A stretch of 40,157 bases of DNA from Candidatus Hydrogenedentota bacterium (GTDB lineage Bacteria; Hydrogenedentota; Hydrogenedentia; Hydrogenedentales; CAITNO01): assembly GCA_903902895.1 (NCBI GenBank), contig CAIUWO010000677.1, positions 1-40,157 on the forward strand, read 5' to 3'. Positions 24,106-40,157 of this stretch are shown here, one piece after another. Position 1 is the stretch's first letter. The number at the start of each line of letters is the position of its first letter. A model generated the notes under the pieces. The model did no database searches. It was not told where the DNA came from and worked only from the letters and a program-made list of their open reading frames with translations. The translations under genes and the position numbers were made by a program.

Positions 24106-24177
24106 CTTATGGACGTTATGAACAGGGTCCGGCGCGTGATTGAGACTGTTGTCCATCGCGTCCATAACGTCCATAAG
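24106..24177. repeat. Inverted repeat built of 9-bp-periodic ATGGAC/GTCCAT units (site A)
   Basis: CTTATGGACGTTATG (24106-24120) and its exact reverse complement CATAACGTCCATAAG (24163-24177); GTCCAT at 24151, 24160, 24169. Confidence 0.85.
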
Positions 24178-25259: not shown

Positions 25260-25290
25260 AGCGCGGCCGGGACCCTGTTCCGGCCGCGCT
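25260..25290 (+). terminator. Rho-independent-like terminator after SDR gene
   Basis: AGCGCGGCCGG-gaccctgtt-CCGGCCGCGCT (11-bp perfect stem) followed by CCTTCTTTCT. Confidence 0.75.
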
Positions 25291-29594: not shown

Positions 29595-29688
29595 ATGGAC
29601 AAAATGGACAAGCTGGACGGCATGGACTGAATCCGAAAAGAACCGTACAATCCCTGCCCATCCCGTCCATATAGTCCATCCCGCCCAT
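29595..29688. repeat. Hairpin-forming 9-bp-periodic ATGGAC/GTCCAT repeat (site B)
   Basis: [A/C]TGGAC at 29595, 29604, 29613, 29622 and G[T/C]CCAT at 29656, 29665, 29674, 29683, all exactly 9 bp apart. Confidence 0.88.
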
Positions 29689-29727: not shown

Positions 29728-29783
29728 TTGACCTTTTCCCCGCAGCAATGTATACTTTACCCACTCAGACTGAGTGGATAAAG
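29728..29783 (+). promoter_or_regulatory. Promoter and operator of nucleotidyltransferase/wHTH module
   Basis: TTGACC (29728-29733), 17 bp, TATACT (29751-29756); palindrome CTTTACCCACTCAG-A-CTGAGTGGATAAAG (29755-29783), 13 of 14 arm positions paired. Confidence 0.8.
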
Positions 29784-29784
29784 C

Positions 29785-30381
29785 ATGAATATCGGCCCCA
29801 ACGAACTCGATAAAGCGTTGCGATTGCTCGGCGGACATCTGCGCTTGCAGGAAGCCCCGCCCATGAGCCTTGTCGTGTGCGGCGGGGCGGCGTTGCTGGC
29901 CCGGGGGTTCCAGACTAGGACCACGCAAGATGTTGATATTCTTGCCTTTATGGACGAAGAGCGAAACCTGGTGACACCCGTTCCGCTGCCCGATGACCTG
30001 ATTGAGGCGGCTGACCGCGCGGCGAAAACGCTTGGTTTGCCGGAAAACTGGCTCAACAACGAACCCAGCGCGCGGGAGAGCGGCCTGTTTCAGCGGGGCC
30101 TTCCCGAGGGCATCACGCAGCGCATGGTTTGCCGCGAGTATGGCAGCCATTTGCGGGTGTTTTTTGTTGGACGGCTGGACCAGATTCATTTCAAACTGCT
30201 GGCGGCTGCCAATGTGGGCGGCCGTCATCTGGACGATTTGCTCGCGCTGGCGCCCACGGCCGATGAGCTCGAACAGGCGGCGCGGTGGGCGATAGCCCGC
30301 AAGCCCGACCCCGCCTTTGCGCAAACACTGACCGGCCTGCTGGGGTATCTCGGTTATGGCAACCTCGCTGAAAGACTATAG
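29785..30381 (+). CDS. Nucleotidyltransferase-like protein (DUF6036/AbiEii-like)
   Basis: MSLVVCGGAALLARGFQTRTTQDVDILAFMDEERNL...: GGxA...RxTxDVD pattern of MNT/AbiEii-type nucleotidyltransferases. Confidence 0.78.
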   Translation: MNIGPNELDKALRLLGGHLRLQEAPPMSLVVCGGAALLARGFQTRTTQDVDILAFMDEERNLVTPVPLPDDLIEAADRAAKTLGLPENWLNNEPSARESGLFQRGLPEGITQRMVCREYGSHLRVFFVGRLDQIHFKLLAAANVGGRHLDDLLALAPTADELEQAARWAIARKPDPAFAQTLTGLLGYLGYGNLAERL

Positions 30382-31366
30382 CGGCGGCGTCCTCGACGGC
30401 ATGCTCGGTTTTCTCTGGCGTCAATGGTCGGCGCTGGGGGTGGCCGGCTATGGGGGCCAGTCGCACCGTCATTTCGTGGACCCTGAAGCGGCGCTGATGC
30501 TCCTGTGCGCCTGCGGCCGCTACGACGCGCGGCTCTTTGACGAGGCGCTTGACTGGCTGGTGAAGTACGAGCGCTTCGTCAACGTGCAGCGCCTGCGCAC
30601 GATAGTCGGCCAGGAACCCTGCACGGGCACGGCCGTGCTGGCCGGTGTGGCCCGCTTTCTGGCCAAACGCACCAAGCAGCGGCGCTGGGACAGCCTGTGC
30701 CCCGCCAAAGAGTCCACTGCGGAGCCCATACCGCTGTTTCTCGGGCGCGACGGCCGTCCGCTGCCCGTGCTCACCGAGCCGGACCCCGATTTCCTGCACG
30801 CCGGACTGCTGCGCGGTCCCGCCCTGCTGCGCGGCCATTCGGGCTTCCGCACTGTGGGCAAGGGCGCGGCGCTCACCCGGCTGCGCGCCCTGCTCGGCGT
30901 CAACGCGCGCTGCGAAATCCTGCTCTTCCTCATGACCCATCCCTTCGGCTATCCGCGCCGCATTGCCGCCGAAGGCCACTACGCCCAGAAGACCATCCAC
31001 GATGCGCTGGACGACATGGCGCTGTCCGGCTTCATCCGCGCCATCAAGGGCAAGCGCGAACGGCTGTGCCGGCTTGAAACCCGCGAATTCGTCAAAACCC
31101 TGCTCGACAAGGGCGCCGCGCCCGAATGGGTGAACTGGCCCCGCGTGCTCGGCGCGCTCGACCAGGCATGGACCGCGCTCGACGCGCTGGCCCGGGACGA
31201 GTCAGACCCGCTTTTGGAGCGCAGCCAGGCCCAAGCAGTCGCCGACGCGCTCACCCTGCGCCTGCACGGCGCGGCCACGCTGCCCGAACTGCCCGCCCCC
31301 AAGAACGACGAACTGGCCGCCGCCCTGCTGCCGTTCCAGCAGACGCTCAAATTGCTGGAGGGGTAA
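30356..31366 (+). CDS. Winged-helix protein encoded downstream of nucleotidyltransferase
   Basis: Internal wHTH-like NARCEILLFLMTHPFGYPRRIAAEGHYAQKTIHDALDDMALSGFIRAIKGKRERLCRL; start overlaps upstream ORF by 26 bp. Confidence 0.7.
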   Translation: MATSLKDYSGGVLDGMLGFLWRQWSALGVAGYGGQSHRHFVDPEAALMLLCACGRYDARLFDEALDWLVKYERFVNVQRLRTIVGQEPCTGTAVLAGVARFLAKRTKQRRWDSLCPAKESTAEPIPLFLGRDGRPLPVLTEPDPDFLHAGLLRGPALLRGHSGFRTVGKGAALTRLRALLGVNARCEILLFLMTHPFGYPRRIAAEGHYAQKTIHDALDDMALSGFIRAIKGKRERLCRLETREFVKTLLDKGAAPEWVNWPRVLGALDQAWTALDALARDESDPLLERSQAQAVADALTLRLHGAATLPELPAPKNDELAAALLPFQQTLKLLEG

Positions 31367-32716: not shown

Positions 32717-34936
32717 CTATTGGCCCATGTCCGACAGCTGGTCCAGCAAATCCTGCGGTGCGCCCGGCCATTGGCACAGACTCATGCCGCCACTGACGTA
32801 AACGGTCCTGCCGTCATCGGCGGGCGTGCCGGTGGGCCAACTGCTTTCCGGAAGCCGGTACTGGCGCAGCAGCGTCCCGTCGGCCACGGAGTAGAGCGCC
32901 GCCGGGGCGTAGTTGTCCCCGTTGCAGACAAAGGCAAAGCGCCTGTTTGCACTGAGCGCAATCTGGTTGCTGATACGACCGTCCCGGTTCCGTTTCTCCG
33001 GCAGCCGCGTGTGGATGGCATGAAGCATGCGCCCTGATTCAGCGTCCCAGACGCGGAGGATCTGGCCCGCCGTGTGGGTGATGACGCGGGAGCCCCCTTC
33101 GGCGAAGGTGGCCGACAGATAGCTTCCCGCCTTGAAACGGTCTGTGACCAGCCCGGCCCAGTCCTTGGCCGTTTCGGCCAGGCCGCTCCAGAATCCGCCC
33201 CGGTAGGAATACAAGTCGGCAAAGCGCTCGGTTTCCTCGAAGCGGTGCAGCAGCGCGCCCGAGGCCGTGTCGAAGAGCCACGCGGTGTTGTATTCACCAA
33301 ACAGCAGGCGCTCGCCGTTGGGGGAAAAGCACAGGCCGCCCCCCCACAGCCTTTTCTGTTCATCCATGGCCATCGACCGGCGCGGAAAGTCCCCGGAGAG
33401 CTCGGTCACTTCGATGGCGTCTCTGGTGTTCAGGGCCACCCGCTTCCCGTCGTCGGAGAAGACCGCGTTCATGCTGCGCTGGCCCTGTTCCGCGCCCGTC
33501 GCGGTGTATTGGGCCACAAGGCGGTCGGCCTCCGCGTCATACAGGCAGGCCACCTGCTTGTCTGTCTGCAACGCCAGGTATTTCCCGTCGGGCGACATCG
33601 CCAGAACTCTTCCCGGACCGGTGCGCAGTGGGGCTTCGCAGTCCTGCACATACAGGCCAAAGACCATGTTTTGCGGGTTGCTGTAGCCGTCCGAATTGAC
33701 CGGGTAGGAGCCGGCGGCATGGGTCAGGGCCTTGTTGACGCTGAAGCCGCCGTAAATCTGCTTGGGCACGCGGCAGCGCCACTCGGCCAGTTTGCGCATG
33801 CCGTCCAGCGCATAAACGGCGTACACCCACAAGCGGTCCTCCTCCATGCCCATGGTGATCAGGCGCCCGGGTTCGGAACGGTCAAAATAGAAGCCGGCGG
33901 GGGCAATGAGCGACCCGTCGAGCACTTTGCGCGGCGCGCCGTCCGGCGCCAGGTTCCATGCGTAGCGATGGTTGGCCCCGTCTTTGGAAAAGACCCATGC
34001 GGCGCCCGCCTCATCCTCAAACAGGGTGTTCAATGCGAAACGATGGCCGTCGCGGGAAAGCGCAAACTGCACCGCGCCCGTTTCCGCATCGACCACGCGC
34101 AGCTCTTTCCGGTCCGCCGTGACGCACAGGAGCCGTTTCCCGTCCCGCATCCAGGACACATAGCGGCTCAGGCCGGCGGTGTCCTTGAACTCGCGCAGCA
34201 CCGTTCCCGTGCGCGCGTCGCGTATCTTCAGCGTCCCCCCGTCGTCCCCGTCCCCCGTCAGTTCCGCGAACTGTCCCAGACTGGAGAAGGAGGGTGCTGG
34301 AATCTCCCAGGAATAGGGCTCCTCCCAGCACGGGGTGACCGTGCCGGTGTCGGCGTCCATGATCCGCCATTTGCGCACCTGGTTTTCGTTGCCGCGGTCG
34401 TACTGCGCGAACATCATTGCCTGGCCGCCCGGCAGCCAACCCTGGAACCCGGGCATCGCGGGCAGCACGCGCTGCGTGCGGTCGGTCACGCCGTAGAGCA
34501 GGCAGCCCCGCTCGCCAATCACCACGGCCCGGCTTTCATCGGGCGAAAGGCGGGCGGCGTACACGTCGCCGCACTGGCTGTTGCGCCGCCACCAGGTTTC
34601 GCGGCCCGTGGCCGCGTCCAGCAGAAACACCCCCTGCTCCGACCACCCCAGCACCTGCCGCTTGCCGAAAGTGACGCCCTGGTATCCACGAGTCGAAACA
34701 AGATACCGGTGCCAGCGCTGCGCCCCCGACGCAGCATCAAACGCGTACACCCCGCCGCCGTTGGCCATTAACAGCAGGTTCTCCGCCTGCAGGAACGCAC
34801 ACTGCTGGGGGATGCCGAGAAAGAGGCGCTTCTCCGGCTCCGTCACCGTGTCCACCGCGTGGGCGGAGACGGCAAAGTGCAGCGTCGCAAAGAACAGCAG
34901 CGCCGGGACTGCAGCGGCTCGGGAGAACCAGTTCAT
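32717..34936 (-). CDS. Secreted PQQ/WD40-like beta-propeller protein, paralogue P1
   Basis: Signal MNWFSRAAAVPALLFFATLHFAVSAHA; TEPEKRLFLGIP...NGGGVYAFDAASGAQRWHR...ILRVWDAESGRMLHAIHTRLPEKRN. Confidence 0.82.
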   Translation of the reverse strand: MNWFSRAAAVPALLFFATLHFAVSAHAVDTVTEPEKRLFLGIPQQCAFLQAENLLLMANGGGVYAFDAASGAQRWHRYLVSTRGYQGVTFGKRQVLGWSEQGVFLLDAATGRETWWRRNSQCGDVYAARLSPDESRAVVIGERGCLLYGVTDRTQRVLPAMPGFQGWLPGGQAMMFAQYDRGNENQVRKWRIMDADTGTVTPCWEEPYSWEIPAPSFSSLGQFAELTGDGDDGGTLKIRDARTGTVLREFKDTAGLSRYVSWMRDGKRLLCVTADRKELRVVDAETGAVQFALSRDGHRFALNTLFEDEAGAAWVFSKDGANHRYAWNLAPDGAPRKVLDGSLIAPAGFYFDRSEPGRLITMGMEEDRLWVYAVYALDGMRKLAEWRCRVPKQIYGGFSVNKALTHAAGSYPVNSDGYSNPQNMVFGLYVQDCEAPLRTGPGRVLAMSPDGKYLALQTDKQVACLYDAEADRLVAQYTATGAEQGQRSMNAVFSDDGKRVALNTRDAIEVTELSGDFPRRSMAMDEQKRLWGGGLCFSPNGERLLFGEYNTAWLFDTASGALLHRFEETERFADLYSYRGGFWSGLAETAKDWAGLVTDRFKAGSYLSATFAEGGSRVITHTAGQILRVWDAESGRMLHAIHTRLPEKRNRDGRISNQIALSANRRFAFVCNGDNYAPAALYSVADGTLLRQYRLPESSWPTGTPADDGRTVYVSGGMSLCQWPGAPQDLLDQLSDMGQ

Positions 34937-34948
34937 GGAAAAGCGCTC

Positions 34949-37120
34949 CTATGGATTCGTTCCCGCATCCTTCGGCCGGCCCGGCCAGCGGTACAGGTTG
35001 CGGTCGCTCTGGACATAGACGGCCGTGCCGTCGTCGGCGGGCACGGCCTCGGTAAACAGGCTTTCGGGCAGTTTATATTGGCGCTGCAGCGTGCCGTCGG
35101 CCAGCGACCACAGTGTCGCCGGGGCGGCGCCGTCGCTGCTGTGGCAGAAGGCGAAACGGCCGGTTGCGCTGAAGACAACGCTTTTCTGAACGGGCCTATT
35201 CTTGACCCGCTTTTCGGACAGGCCTGTTTGGATGGTGTGCAGCAACGCGCCCGAGCCGGCGTCCCACACGCCGATGATCTGCTTCCCCGCAAGCGTGACT
35301 ACCCGGGCACCCCCGTCGATGAAGAACGCTTCTGCGAGACTGCTCTCCGCACCGGGGCCGAAGGCGCGGTGCACGGCGGGATCGGGTTCCTCAAAGCTGC
35401 GCAGCAGCGCGCCCGTGGCGGCGTCGAACAGCCGCACCCCTCCGCCTCCCCCGCACAGCACGCTTGCCCCGTCAGGTGACAGACAGGGCTTTGCCCACCC
35501 GATTCGTGCGTCCTTCCCGATGGCCATGGACCGCCGGGCATAGCCTTCAGCCAGGTCGGTGACTTCGAGCGACGCGGTGGTGTTCAGCACGAACCGCATG
35601 CCGTTGTCTGAAAAGGCCGCATGCATGCGGGGAGGGAACCGGTCCTCTTTGCTGTCTGCGGCATACTGGCAGACGGCCCTGCCTGTTTGCACCTCGTACA
35701 GGCAGGCGGTGGTGTCGTCGCTTTGCACGGCCAAAAATCGGGCATCGGGCGAAACGGCGAGGGGATTGCCCGTGCCCTTGAACACGGGCGCCGTCTTGCC
35801 CTGAACATAGACGCTGAAGGCCCTTTTCCTCGTCGGATCTTGGACATCCCTGTCGACTTGCCCGACACTGACAAAGTGGGTCATGGACCTGTTGATAAGG
35901 GGCTGGCGCCTGTCCAAGTTGCCTTGGGGAATGCGCCACTCTGCGAGCTTCTGTCGGCCATCCAGTGTGTACGCGGTAATTGTGCGGGTGCGATCTTCGC
36001 TGAACTTGGAGAACAGGGCATAGTTGGGGTCGGCAACATGGAGTTTGAAACTGCCTTGCGGTCCAAGAAGCGTTCCGTCAAACACCTTCCGGGGTGCGCT
36101 GTCCGCAGTCATGGGCCATGCATACAAGTTCCTTGCCGCATCCAGCGAGAAAGCCCAGGCATTGCCCGCGGCGTCTTCGAAGGGCAGGTGCATGGTGAAC
36201 TCGTGGCCTTCCTTGGAAAGGGAACACTGCACCATGCCCGTCTCGGCATCCACGACATGCACCTGCTTCTCGTCGGTGGTCCGGTAAAGTACCCGTTTGG
36301 AATCTCCCAACCAGAAGAAACGCTTTGTTCGCCCGGGCACGCTCTTGAATTCGCGCAGGGGCGCGCCGGTGCGCGCATCCGAGATTCTCAGGGTCGTGCC
36401 GTCTTTCCCTTCGCCGATGGCCTCCGCGCACAGGCCCATGGAAGAGATAGTCAGTCCGGGCGCATCTCGGGAAACGGTCCGTTCCCAGGGCGGACCAACC
36501 TCGCCGGTGCTGATGTCCATCAAAGACCACTTATAGACGCCGCCAGACGGCTGTTCTTCCCGCTGGGTGAGCACCAGTGCATTGATTCCCGTCAGCCAGC
36601 GGGCCCCGAGGGCGTTGTCCGACTTGGGCAGGACGCGCTGCGTGCGGCCGGCCACAGAGAACAGGATGTGCTGCTTCGTGCAACTGGCCAGCACCTGTGA
36701 TTCATCGGGTGACAGTTCCGCCCACCGCATGTCGCCGAACTGGGTGTCGCGCTGCCGCCACGTTTCCTGGCCCGTCTTCATGTCCAGCAGAAACAGCTCC
36801 GGGTCCGACCAGAACAAAACGTGCCGCCGGCCGAGGTCCGCGCCGCAACCGTGAAATTTGCCGGAAGCGTCCATGTGTGAGGGGAGGTGTCGATGCCAGA
36901 GCTCTTTTCCGGAGGGGATGTCAAAGGCATACACCCCGCCGCCGTTGACCATCACAAGCAGCTTGTCCTCCTGCAAATAGGCGAGTTGGTAGGGAAATCC
37001 CAGGAAGACACACTGCTCCGGCTCCGTCACCAGGTCGTCCCCGGCAATCGCGGGGAGTGTGTGCAATGACGCGAAAAACAGCAGCATCCAGATCGCCGTG
37101 CGTTGGGAAAGCGACTTCAT
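34949..37120 (-). CDS. Secreted PQQ/WD40-like beta-propeller protein, paralogue P2
   Basis: Signal MKSLSQRTAIWMLLFFASLHTLPAIAG; TEPEQCVFLGFP...NGGGVYAFDIPSGKELWHR...GVWDAGSGALLHTIQTGLSEKR...LYRWPGRPKD. Confidence 0.82.
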   Translation of the reverse strand: MKSLSQRTAIWMLLFFASLHTLPAIAGDDLVTEPEQCVFLGFPYQLAYLQEDKLLVMVNGGGVYAFDIPSGKELWHRHLPSHMDASGKFHGCGADLGRRHVLFWSDPELFLLDMKTGQETWRQRDTQFGDMRWAELSPDESQVLASCTKQHILFSVAGRTQRVLPKSDNALGARWLTGINALVLTQREEQPSGGVYKWSLMDISTGEVGPPWERTVSRDAPGLTISSMGLCAEAIGEGKDGTTLRISDARTGAPLREFKSVPGRTKRFFWLGDSKRVLYRTTDEKQVHVVDAETGMVQCSLSKEGHEFTMHLPFEDAAGNAWAFSLDAARNLYAWPMTADSAPRKVFDGTLLGPQGSFKLHVADPNYALFSKFSEDRTRTITAYTLDGRQKLAEWRIPQGNLDRRQPLINRSMTHFVSVGQVDRDVQDPTRKRAFSVYVQGKTAPVFKGTGNPLAVSPDARFLAVQSDDTTACLYEVQTGRAVCQYAADSKEDRFPPRMHAAFSDNGMRFVLNTTASLEVTDLAEGYARRSMAIGKDARIGWAKPCLSPDGASVLCGGGGGVRLFDAATGALLRSFEEPDPAVHRAFGPGAESSLAEAFFIDGGARVVTLAGKQIIGVWDAGSGALLHTIQTGLSEKRVKNRPVQKSVVFSATGRFAFCHSSDGAAPATLWSLADGTLQRQYKLPESLFTEAVPADDGTAVYVQSDRNLYRWPGRPKDAGTNP

Positions 37121-37132
37121 GGTAAAGGGCTC

Positions 37133-39586
37133 CTATGGCGTCATGTTTGTCGGCCGGCCCGGCCAGCGGTGGAGGGTGTCGCCGGCCATCACATACACAC
37201 ATGCGCCGTCGTTGGGAACAGCGAAGGTGAATGGAATCTTGTCCGGGAACTGGTAGCGCCGGATCCGCTCGCCGTCCGCCAGCGACCATAGGGACGCGGG
37301 GGCAAAGTTGTCGCGGTTGTAGAAGAGGGCGTAATCGCCGTTGTCGCTGAGCACGACGCGATTGCTAATCATTCCGTTTTGGTTTCGTTTCTCGGGAAGC
37401 CCGGCCTCAATGGTGCGGAGCAGGTCGCCTGTGTGGGTGTCCCAGACGCGGACGACCTGCCCGCCGGCCTGGGTGAGGATGCGGTCACCGAAGGCGGCAA
37501 AGGCGACATGAACCGGGCCGGGGCTCTTGTAGCGGTCCGTGGCCAGACCGGCCCAGTCGCGGGCGGTCTGCTCCAGCGATCTCATGAAACCGCCCTGGGC
37601 GTAGGGTTGGGCCTCGTAGAACTGCCGCGTTTCGGTGAAGCTGTGCACGAGCGCGCCGCTGTCGGCGTTGTGCAGCCATGCGCGGCCATAGCCGCCGCAT
37701 AGCAGCAGGGTTCCGTCCGGCGAGAAACACATGCTTTGCCCGTTGCCGAAGTTCCATGTACCCTGCGAGCAACTGAAACCCTCTTTGCCACTGTCGGGGG
37801 CCATCTTGCGCCGGGGGAAATCGGCCGTCAGGTCGACCACTTCCAGATTGGGGTATGCATTGACGGCTACCCGGCGTCCGTCATCGGAGAACACCGCCTG
37901 TCCCTGACCGTCCCAATCCAACACGAAATCGAATACATGCACCGTCCGCTTCTCTTGCAGATCCTGAAGCACAACCCGCTTTCCCGAGGTCTGCACGACA
38001 AGGAAGCGTCCGTCCGGCGACAGGGCCAGCGGGTCGCCCTTGCCGGAAGACAACGCGGTTTCCACGCCGTCGGCGTACACTTCAAAACTGTTTGACTCGG
38101 ACCTGCCATTCCCGCCAAAGCCTCTGTTGACGCAGTGGGTCATGGTCCGGTTAAACAATCCATATCCATACTGCATGTTTTGTTTGGGCAACCGCCACGT
38201 GCCTGTCTTTGTCATGCCCTCCATCTGGTAGGCGGTGAGCGCGTCCTTTCCGGACACCTCGGTGTGCGCCGTCAAATAGCCGCCACGCTGAAAGCCCAGC
38301 GCGCTGCCCGGTGCGATCCGTTGTCCGTCAAACAGCCTGGTCGGCGTGGCATCGGGCGCGGGCGGCCAGAACCAGATATTGCGATCTTCGTCCTGTGAAA
38401 TGACCATGTCCGGGCCTTCGTCAGGACTTTGAATCCGTACCTTGAGCATCTTGTGTCCGGGCCGGGAAAGGGTCTGCTGGAGCGCACCGGTCTGGGTGTC
38501 GAGCACGCAGGCCTTCTTCTGGTCATAGGTCGTAAAATACAGGCCCTTCTCGTCGGCCGTCCAAGTTGGCCGGGCGAATTCTTCCGGGATTTGTCCGAGA
38601 TCGCGAACCAGCGCGCCGGTGGCTGTGTCGAGTACCTTCAGTCCCGTGGGGCCGCCTATTTTCTGGGAACAGACGGCGAAAAGGCCCGATGCCGACAAGC
38701 CCCCCCAGGGGCTGTAGCTTGTCGCTTGAAGCATATGCCCCTCGGAGGCACTGCCGCTGTCCAGGTCCACGCGAAAGAATTCCTTGGGCAGGTCGGGGGA
38801 CAGCATTGAGGAGGTTTGGTTGGCCATGACCCGGCAAAACAGCGCGGTCCTGAAGTCGGGCAGCACTGCCACAGGAAAGGCGTTTGGCATATCCGAAAAG
38901 ACGCGCTGGTTTCGACTGGCCGTTTCGTAGACGACGGTGGTCAGGCGGGGCCGGGCATTTCTATCGTTGTTGTTTGGGTCAAAGAGCGCCACCACACGGG
39001 ATCCGTCGGGCGAAAGCATGGCACTTGCCACGTGGCCGTAGCGGTCTTCGCGCCGCCACCAGACTTCGCGGCCCGTGGCCTTGTCGAGCAGGAACAGTTC
39101 ATTGTTTGTCCAGCCCAGAACGTGTTTCCTGCCCCACGCCACATTGGCGCCCTGCTTGCGGTGCCAGCGCTGCGCGCCGGACTGGATGTCAAAGGCGCAC
39201 AGGCCGCTTTGGGCGGTCATGACAAACAGATTCTCTTCGGCCATGAAGTCCACCCCGCGGTCTTGGGGGTTGCCGAACAAGACGCATTCCTCCGGCTCGG
39301 TGGCCATGGGTGCCTCGGCGCGGGCGGCGGAAGAAGGCAGAAACAGTGCGGCAAGCAGCAATGCCGCCAAGAGAGTCGCTCGGATAAGTGTGGGACAGCC
39401 GCCCTCGGCTGTCGTGCCCCGTGCATGATCTTCCACCTTCTTCTCCCTCCCCTTGGCAAGGGGAGGGGCGGGGTGGGGTTCTTCTAGCGAAGCGACGCTT
39501 GGCAGCGCCGGGGCGGCATGGCCGCAAGCACTCAAAAAGGACATGTGTTCACCCCTTTGAATAACACGAACCGGATTTAGAACCAT
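37133..39586 (-). CDS. Secreted PQQ/WD40-like beta-propeller protein, paralogue P3 (start uncertain)
   Basis: TEPEECVLFGNPQ...LCAFDIQSGAQRWHR...VRVWDTHTGDLLRTIEAGLPEKRN...LHRWPGRPTN. ATG at 39586 has SD AAGGGAGG 6 nt upstream; ATG at 39544 also possible; N-terminus precedes a late hydrophobic segment. Confidence 0.78.
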   Translation of the reverse strand: MVLNPVRVIQRGEHMSFLSACGHAAPALPSVASLEEPHPAPPLAKGREKKVEDHARGTTAEGGCPTLIRATLLAALLLAALFLPSSAARAEAPMATEPEECVLFGNPQDRGVDFMAEENLFVMTAQSGLCAFDIQSGAQRWHRKQGANVAWGRKHVLGWTNNELFLLDKATGREVWWRREDRYGHVASAMLSPDGSRVVALFDPNNNDRNARPRLTTVVYETASRNQRVFSDMPNAFPVAVLPDFRTALFCRVMANQTSSMLSPDLPKEFFRVDLDSGSASEGHMLQATSYSPWGGLSASGLFAVCSQKIGGPTGLKVLDTATGALVRDLGQIPEEFARPTWTADEKGLYFTTYDQKKACVLDTQTGALQQTLSRPGHKMLKVRIQSPDEGPDMVISQDEDRNIWFWPPAPDATPTRLFDGQRIAPGSALGFQRGGYLTAHTEVSGKDALTAYQMEGMTKTGTWRLPKQNMQYGYGLFNRTMTHCVNRGFGGNGRSESNSFEVYADGVETALSSGKGDPLALSPDGRFLVVQTSGKRVVLQDLQEKRTVHVFDFVLDWDGQGQAVFSDDGRRVAVNAYPNLEVVDLTADFPRRKMAPDSGKEGFSCSQGTWNFGNGQSMCFSPDGTLLLCGGYGRAWLHNADSGALVHSFTETRQFYEAQPYAQGGFMRSLEQTARDWAGLATDRYKSPGPVHVAFAAFGDRILTQAGGQVVRVWDTHTGDLLRTIEAGLPEKRNQNGMISNRVVLSDNGDYALFYNRDNFAPASLWSLADGERIRRYQFPDKIPFTFAVPNDGACVYVMAGDTLHRWPGRPTNMTP
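39394..39467. repeat. Two palindromes inside the 5' part of the P3 ORF
   Basis: GACAGCCG-CCCT-CGGCTGTC (39394-39413) and CCCTCCCCTTG-G-CAAGGGGAGGG (39445-39467), both perfect. Confidence 0.85.
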
Positions 39587-39599
39587 GGTCATCCTCCCT

Positions 39600-40157
39600 T
39601 CACATTTCATCTTTCGGCCGACCCGCCCAGCGGTACAGTTGTCCGTTGCCGATCATGTACACGGCGGTTCCGTCGTTGCTGACGGCCACGCCTTCCTGAA
39701 AGGGCCCGGACAGTTTGTAGCGCCGAACCAGAGCGCCGCTGTTCAACGACCACAATGACGCCGGACCCGCGTTGCTCCGGTTATAGCAGAAGGCGTAATC
39801 GCCCAGCGGGTTGAGCACAACCATGTTCTGGATGATGTCCCCATTGCTGTTGCGCTTCTCGGGGAGTTCCGTCTTGATCGTTTGAAGCAGCGCGTAGGTG
39901 TTGCCGTCCCAAACGCGGATAATTTGGCCCACGGCGTGGGTGATGATGGTGGCGCCGCCGCTGCCAAAGGCAACTTCAAGGCGTTTGGTCGTCTTGAACC
40001 GGTCGGTGACCAGGCCCGCCCAGTCCCTTGCCCGGTTGGCGATGCCGTCCAGCGTTTCACCGCCCCAGCCGCGCCATGTTTCCGCGTACCGCTCGGTCTC
40101 CTCAAAGGTGTGCAGCAGGGCTCCGGTGTCCGCGTCGAACAGGCTTGCACGGCCATA
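39600..40157 (-). CDS. Beta-propeller paralogue P4, C-terminal part; N-terminus beyond window
   Basis: Reading frame continues past the ORF-track start (39932) to the edge: YGRASLFDADTGALLHTFEETERYAETWRGWGGETLDGIANRARDWAGLVTDRFKTTKRLEVAFGSGGATIITHAVGQIIRVWDGNTYALLQTIKTELPEKRN...LYRWAGRPKDEM. Confidence 0.88.
   Translation of the reverse strand, partial: YGRASLFDADTGALLHTFEETERYAETWRGWGGETLDGIANRARDWAGLVTDRFKTTKRLEVAFGSGGATIITHAVGQIIRVWDGNTYALLQTIKTELPEKRNSNGDIIQNMVVLNPLGDYAFCYNRSNAGPASLWSLNSGALVRRYKLSGPFQEGVAVSNDGTAVYMIGNGQLYRWAGRPKDEM

Follow-up and report, generated by a model that had tools for sequence, protein, structure and literature searches.

The window analyzed here, a stretch of 40,157 nucleotides from a Candidatus Hydrogenedentota bacterium, carries two overlapping genes behind a promoter and a palindrome:

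29728..29756, plus strand: sigma-70-like promoter TTGACC-17-TATACT (-35 at 29728-29733, -10 at 29751-29756, spacer of 17 nt)
29755..29783, no strand assigned: 29-bp palindrome CTTTACCCACTCAG-A-CTGAGTGGATAAAG, with 14-bp arms and one mismatch, a probable operator
29785..30381, plus strand: ORF1, 198 aa, a DUF6036/AbiEii-like nucleotidyltransferase and probable toxin (GG33-34, R45, T47, D49xD51, K137, D151)
30356..31366, plus strand: ORF2, 336 aa, of an unnamed family, a probable antitoxin and autorepressor (central ArsR-type winged helix, residues ~184-251)

The two genes overlap by 26 nt, stop included, and the coordinates agree with a first-pass annotation that had been made from the letters of the sequence.

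ORF1 carries the motifs CGGAALL and RTTQDVD, which the first-pass annotation had read as a nucleotidyltransferase signature. The window copy matched DUF6036 (PF19502) at 6e-5, which is 0.3 bits under the Pfam gathering score. The same profile matched 59 of the 62 full-length ORF1 relatives (best 2.7e-8), whereas Pfam AbiEii matched 26 of the 62; PADLOC AbiEii models were also weakly matched. The nucleotidyltransferase reading held on alignment: G34, T47, K137, D151, and both aspartates of the DxD motif, D49 and D51, were invariant across the 62 sequences, and G33 and R45 were at least 90% conserved. The motif III arginine of AbiE-type enzymes was not conserved in the window ORF1. An AlphaFold2 model of ORF1 was confident (pLDDT 94.6, pTM 0.90), and its six best PDB matches in Foldseek were MenT1 and TglT/MenT3 toxins, with a best probability of 0.99 but a remote structural likeness (TM 0.44-0.47, Foldseek E 0.03). 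Mutation has identified residues that matter in AbiEii (G49, R63, D67, D69, K173, and D192; PMC3985639) and in MenT1 (T39, D41, K137, and D152; PMC11375011). By motif and spacing, not by coordinates, ORF1 G33/G34, R45, T47, D49, D51, K137, and D151 pair with AbiEii G49/R63/D67xD69/K173/D192 and MenT1 R37/T39/D41xD43/K137/D152. ORF1 T47 occupies the position of MenT1 T39 and MenT3 S78, which lie two residues before the DxD and are auto-phosphorylated under antitoxin control (PMC11375011, PMC10435456). The assignment of ORF1 as a nucleotidyltransferase of the AbiEii/MenT kind is thus supported at the level of sequence and predicted fold.

The window ORF2 gave no sequence match in Pfam, NCBIfam, PADLOC, or the PDB. 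A profile of 80 relatives matched ArsR-type winged helices at residues 184-251 (E 0.003), and individual members matched generic HTH models only. The structure model was confident (pLDDT 89, pTM 0.90) and contained the same internal winged helix, a feature already noticed in the first-pass annotation, flanked by helical N-terminal and C-terminal domains. Invariant residues of the N-terminal domain were W21, W24, G28, G31, D42, E44, R59, D62, and W67. Foldseek found no whole-length relative of ORF2 in the PDB or among viral models, and no fold-level kinship with a known antitoxin, though AbiEi and Rv2827c structures were among the PDB entries searched. None of the 80 members matched AbiEi; in Pfam, NCBIfam, PADLOC, and the PDB they matched wHTH models only. 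By these searches, ORF2 shares with known proteins only its central ArsR-type winged helix.

A search with the ORF2 profile, in which each species was represented by one genome, returned 168 relatives, and the best 80 were analyzed as loci. ORF1 lay directly upstream of ORF2 on the same strand in 75 of these 80 loci; contig ends cut three of the other five. The toxin-like gene came first in all 75 linked loci, which generalizes the order remarked on for the window. Of the 72 pairs whose overlap could be measured, 51 overlapped by 26 nt and a further 13 by 20 nt. The pair spans more than ten phyla, among them Hydrogenedentota, Verrucomicrobiota, Lentisphaerota, Kiritimatiellota, Elusimicrobiota, Spirochaetota, Thermodesulfobacteriota, Nitrospirota, Omnitrophota, and Planctomycetota. 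When each gene served as its own query in 390 Verrucomicrobiota genomes, 31 had ORF1, 35 had ORF2, and 30 had both. Against two congeneric species, dN/dS was 0.12-0.14 for ORF1 and 0.09 for ORF2, indicating that both genes are under purifying selection. By gene order and co-occurrence, ORF1-ORF2 is a conserved unit.

The first-pass annotation had linked this unit to AbiE and MenTA. That kinship stood for ORF1, through its MenT folds and AbiEii motifs, and was not supported for ORF2, which had no AbiEi match beyond the winged helix. The AbiE system (AbiEi/AbiEii, type IV) likewise is a two-gene operon with a wHTH partner, promoter inverted repeats, and a polymerase-beta-type nucleotidyltransferase with GG, R, DxD, K, and D motifs (PMC3985639). 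Its motifs I-IV (G, R/DxD, K, D) are all present in ORF1, invariant or at least 90% conserved in the 62 members. A true AbiE or MenAT system with a very divergent antitoxin would account for the AbiEii matches in Pfam and PADLOC and for the MenT folds, and it would agree with the AbiEi plan of a wHTH plus a neutralizing domain (PMC3985639). However, AbiE is antitoxin-first (PMC3985639), whereas every linked locus here is toxin-first, with a single palindrome over the start site in the window. The AbiE toxin is DUF1814, while DUF6036 is the better family for ORF1. AbiE antitoxins belong to the AbiEi families (COG5340/COG4861) and carry an N-terminal wHTH, whereas ORF2 belongs to another family and carries its wHTH centrally. 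AbiE is further defined, beyond sequence, by a non-interacting (type IV) toxin and antitoxin and by phage resistance. MenAT1 and MenAT3 of Mycobacterium tuberculosis (PMC11375011, PMC10435456) provide the closest solved folds of ORF1, and their T39/S78 correspond to the invariant T47. ORF1 has the nucleotidyltransferase fold with S/T-x-DxD, K, and D that marks MenT toxins, at remote similarity; the defining activity of MenT toxins is nucleotide transfer to tRNA 3' ends. MenA antitoxins, in contrast, are unrelated to ORF2, and MenAT1 is without transcriptional autoregulation (PMC11375011, PMC10435456). We therefore regard membership in AbiE or MenAT as improbable. By its antitoxin family and gene order the pair falls outside AbiE; by analogy it would work like AbiE/MenAT, yet it is not AbiE.

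The two genes decayed unequally. ORF1 was frameshifted, deleted, or absent while ORF2 stayed open in 11 genomes (G058, G065, G011, G100, G187, G314, G437, G444, G291, G331, and G353), and the opposite occurred in one. This count covers Hydrogenedentota and Verrucomicrobiota, the phyla surveyed with both genes. In G444, the ORF2 reading frame was open up to the contig end. The lone reverse case, G346, kept ORF1, but its ORF2 was truncated to 25 residues; the breakpoint is possibly an assembly join. With gene lengths taken into account, a split of at least 11 in 12 had a binomial probability of 1.5e-4, or of 0.012 with gross losses only; some single frameshifts may be assembly errors, which are expected in both genes in proportion to length. 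The 11 to 1 pattern is as expected for a dispensable toxin and a retained antitoxin, a general trait of toxin-antitoxin operons, as is a conserved overlapping pair; a second function of ORF2 would fit too. Solo ORF2 genes also occur, and these fit an antitoxin relic and equally a regulator with a role of its own.

The promoter upstream of ORF1 matched the consensus at 10 of 12 positions, and 0.2 promoter-like sites are expected per shuffle of the region. The palindrome takes in the final 2 nt of the -10, the expected transcription start, and the Shine-Dalgarno region, and leaves 1 nt before the ORF1 ATG (29785). Both elements are as the first-pass annotation had described them. The palindrome core, CCACTCA-N3-TGAGTGG, had a single zero-mismatch occurrence across the 7.6-Mb genome. 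The 40-kb window held one further inverted repeat of equal quality (14-bp arms, at most 1 mismatch, spacer 0-10), a GC-rich, near-perfect, terminator-like or structural element at 25260-25290 (AGCGCGGCCGGGAC..GTTCCGGCCGCGCT). Two congeneric species retained the -35, the -10, and the palindrome but not the DNA further upstream. A palindrome with CACT half-sites followed the -10, equally far from the ATG, in other Hydrogenedentota, Elusimicrobiota, Bacillota, and Planctomycetota (for example TATACTTATTCCACTCGTAATAAGTGGAATAAGTT at locus L073), while Verrucomicrobiota had different palindromes at that position (GTGCG..CGCAC; ATACCC..GGGTAT). A chance palindrome was rejected for the window copy and its genus. 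At the other loci, palindrome scores of single sequences were mostly not significant (9/73 at p of 0.05 or less versus shuffles), so the operator claim rests on conservation. Read across genomes, the promoter palindrome is a phylogenetic footprint, in keeping with the autoregulatory look that the module had been given at first reading.

Because it covers the Shine-Dalgarno region, the palindrome could instead act as an mRNA hairpin hiding the ribosome-binding site. However, a transcription start about 7 nt after the -10 leaves most of the left arm untranscribed, and the remaining RNA folded no better than shuffles (z +1.27). The hairpin was rejected on this result, and we consider it very unlikely to be the explanation. 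Toxin-antitoxin operons in general are autoregulated by the antitoxin at a palindromic operator. Across the loci, the type of site tracked ORF2 recognition-helix residues 211-212 (Fisher p 6e-6 to 1e-3, with motifs picked post hoc and ~2 independent contrasts on the tree): QK with CACT, ER with GTGCG, RR with TACCC, and HR with GCCG. This apparent recognition-helix code is a lead only, since the independent contrasts are few and the motifs were chosen after inspection.

The window copy sits among housekeeping genes, with cysE upstream and an HNH gene downstream. The cysE-module order was kept in two other species of the genus; the HNH gene was particular to the window genome among the three congeneric genomes compared, and it was rejected as a part of the module since it is not near the module in the congeneric species. 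The HNH gene and a repeat boundary had been proposed as signs of accessory DNA. With the cysE order kept in the genus and the HNH gene not, neither is evidence of this, and the repeat boundary itself was not borne out. Carriage of the pair as accessory cargo of a mobile element, bounded by the nearby repeats and the HNH gene, would suit its patchy presence in Hydrogenedentota (13 to 14 of 68 genomes). Against this stand the conserved cysE context and the absence of relatives from 2.9 million viral contigs, PLSDB plasmids, and phage records. A mobile element was rejected for the latter reason, and we leave the cargo explanation only the slimmest chance. From its setting, the window copy is a solitary chromosomal module and not part of a defense island.

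Several other features of the window and its genome were recorded. GTCCAT/ATGGAC repeats lie at 29595-29680 and 24151-24174, with 28 copies of GTCCAT in the window against about 10 expected; those between cysE and the module face either way and might fold into a hairpin. On the minus strand, 32717-40157 holds a tandem array of four paralogues, each of ~740 aa, with 36-44% identity to the first and the last cut by the window end, a lineage-specific family expansion. A second DUF6036-like gene in the same genome (L226, G000:C866) stands behind a 133-aa ORF and has no ORF2 relative; with that ORF it forms a candidate for another two-gene pair.

Surveying the neighborhoods for defense genes revealed a linkage that the first-pass annotation had not foreseen. 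Type I restriction genes, whose families were confirmed with Pfam, surrounded the pair in 27 of the best 80 of 168 loci, typically in the order hsdM-ORF1-ORF2-hsdS-hsdR. In 23 of the 80 loci, a same-strand hsdM ended no more than 200 nt before the pair, and in four more it lay one gene away. Directly 3' of the pair, hsdS started in 22 of the 80, followed by hsdR and a YgjP-type peptidase gene. Parsimony on the ORF2 tree gave ~10 changes between embedded and free forms (27 embedded versus 49 free rows), which indicates that the association with restriction genes recurs. Linkage was rarer in an even sample of Verrucomicrobiota, at about 5 of 35 loci. Within a Thermodesulfobacteriota lineage the linkage was tight: in a survey of 396 genomes, close relatives of the L106 hsdM were followed by ORF1 and ORF2 in 6/6 cases with readable downstream DNA. 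The hsdM-ORF1 gap in loci of this lineage was typically 2 nt, and no palindrome preceded ORF1. Instead, coupled loci without the ORF1 palindrome (L101, L106, L109, L114-L117, L122, L124, L236, L241, and L243-L245) carried a conserved inverted repeat of 29-35 bp, AGTTTAWC-N-GWTAAACT, ahead of the hsdM promoter. This position suggests that ORF2 may control the entire operon; all 6/6 compared close hsdM relatives carry ORF1, so the comparison holds no pair-free hsdM.

These loci raise the alternative that the genes form no toxin-antitoxin pair: ORF2 would, as RptR or C proteins do, serve mainly to control type I restriction operons, and ORF1 would tune this control as an accessory enzyme that modifies RNA or protein. 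The tight hsdM-ORF1-ORF2-hsdS coupling, the repeat upstream of hsdM, and the outliving of ORF1 by ORF2 are all consistent with such a role. However, restriction genes are absent from the surroundings of most loci, including that of the window, and these solitary forms keep both genes with intact catalytic residues. Four hsdM-like genes occur in the window genome, all of them away from the ORF1-ORF2 locus. We give this alternative a small chance, similar to that of AbiE or MenAT membership.

The best explanation, which we hold to be probable, is that ORF1 and ORF2 together make up a toxin-antitoxin module belonging to a new family. ORF1 would stop growth through nucleotide transfer to RNA, most likely tRNA to judge from the fold. 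ORF2 would neutralize ORF1, either by binding it or by promoting auto-phosphorylation at T47, and probably binds the palindrome at 29755-29783 and so represses its own operon. Where the pair lies between hsdM and hsdS, it is probably a back-up abortive-infection arm or an operon regulator. The back-up role draws on analogy with PrrC in ecoprrI (PMC12707154) and with DarTG2 (PMC12255303). PrrC, in a type IC operon, is likewise a growth inhibitor within an hsd operon directed at tRNA, as ORF1 is presumed to be, but it is a single-protein anticodon nuclease held by the restriction enzyme, and no separate antitoxin gene is present. DarTG2 likewise is a toxin-antitoxin pair embedded in an hsd operon, which also encodes an M48-type peptidase and a repressor of its own; it differs in transferring ADP-ribose to DNA, in using the separate small repressor RptR, and in its occurrence in Gammaproteobacteria. 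A defense role finds its best evidence in the recurrent embedding of the pair in type I restriction operons, and on genomic grounds the pair looks like an uncharacterized toxin-antitoxin family tied to anti-phage defense. A more specific scenario is speculative and, in our judgment, rather doubtful. A type I restriction subtype known from Thermodesulfobacteriota, Nitrospirota, Omnitrophota, and other groups would have a built-in nucleotidyltransferase guard, with ORF2 repressing the whole hsd operon and silencing ORF1. A phage that blocks or removes the restriction enzyme would free ORF1 and thereby shut down translation through tRNA modification; the window copy would then be a free-standing ancestor or descendant.

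Among the papers searched, none dealt with DUF6036 or with a pair of this nucleotidyltransferase kind inside type I restriction operons. The analysis adds an uncharacterized antitoxin-like family for which neither Pfam nor NCBIfam has a dedicated model, and it offers a testable role for DUF6036, which is annotated as "of unknown function". The restriction linkage is the most interesting feature of a pair that otherwise resembles the known AbiE/MenAT kind. If the embedded form is a true toxic module, it would be a third kind in type I restriction operons beside PrrC and DarTG2, and the operons that bear it come mostly from little-studied phyla.

Some restriction loci carried additional genes. 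A HigA-like helix-turn-helix sequence, possibly a second regulator or antitoxin, lies between hsdM and ORF1 in L063 and L069. A TIR/SEFIR-domain protein with a piece matching HSDR_N is encoded within a type I restriction locus at L087:10288-10962. A RadC-like gene lies just 5' of hsdM in L124, L122, L109, L101, L115, L236, and L237.
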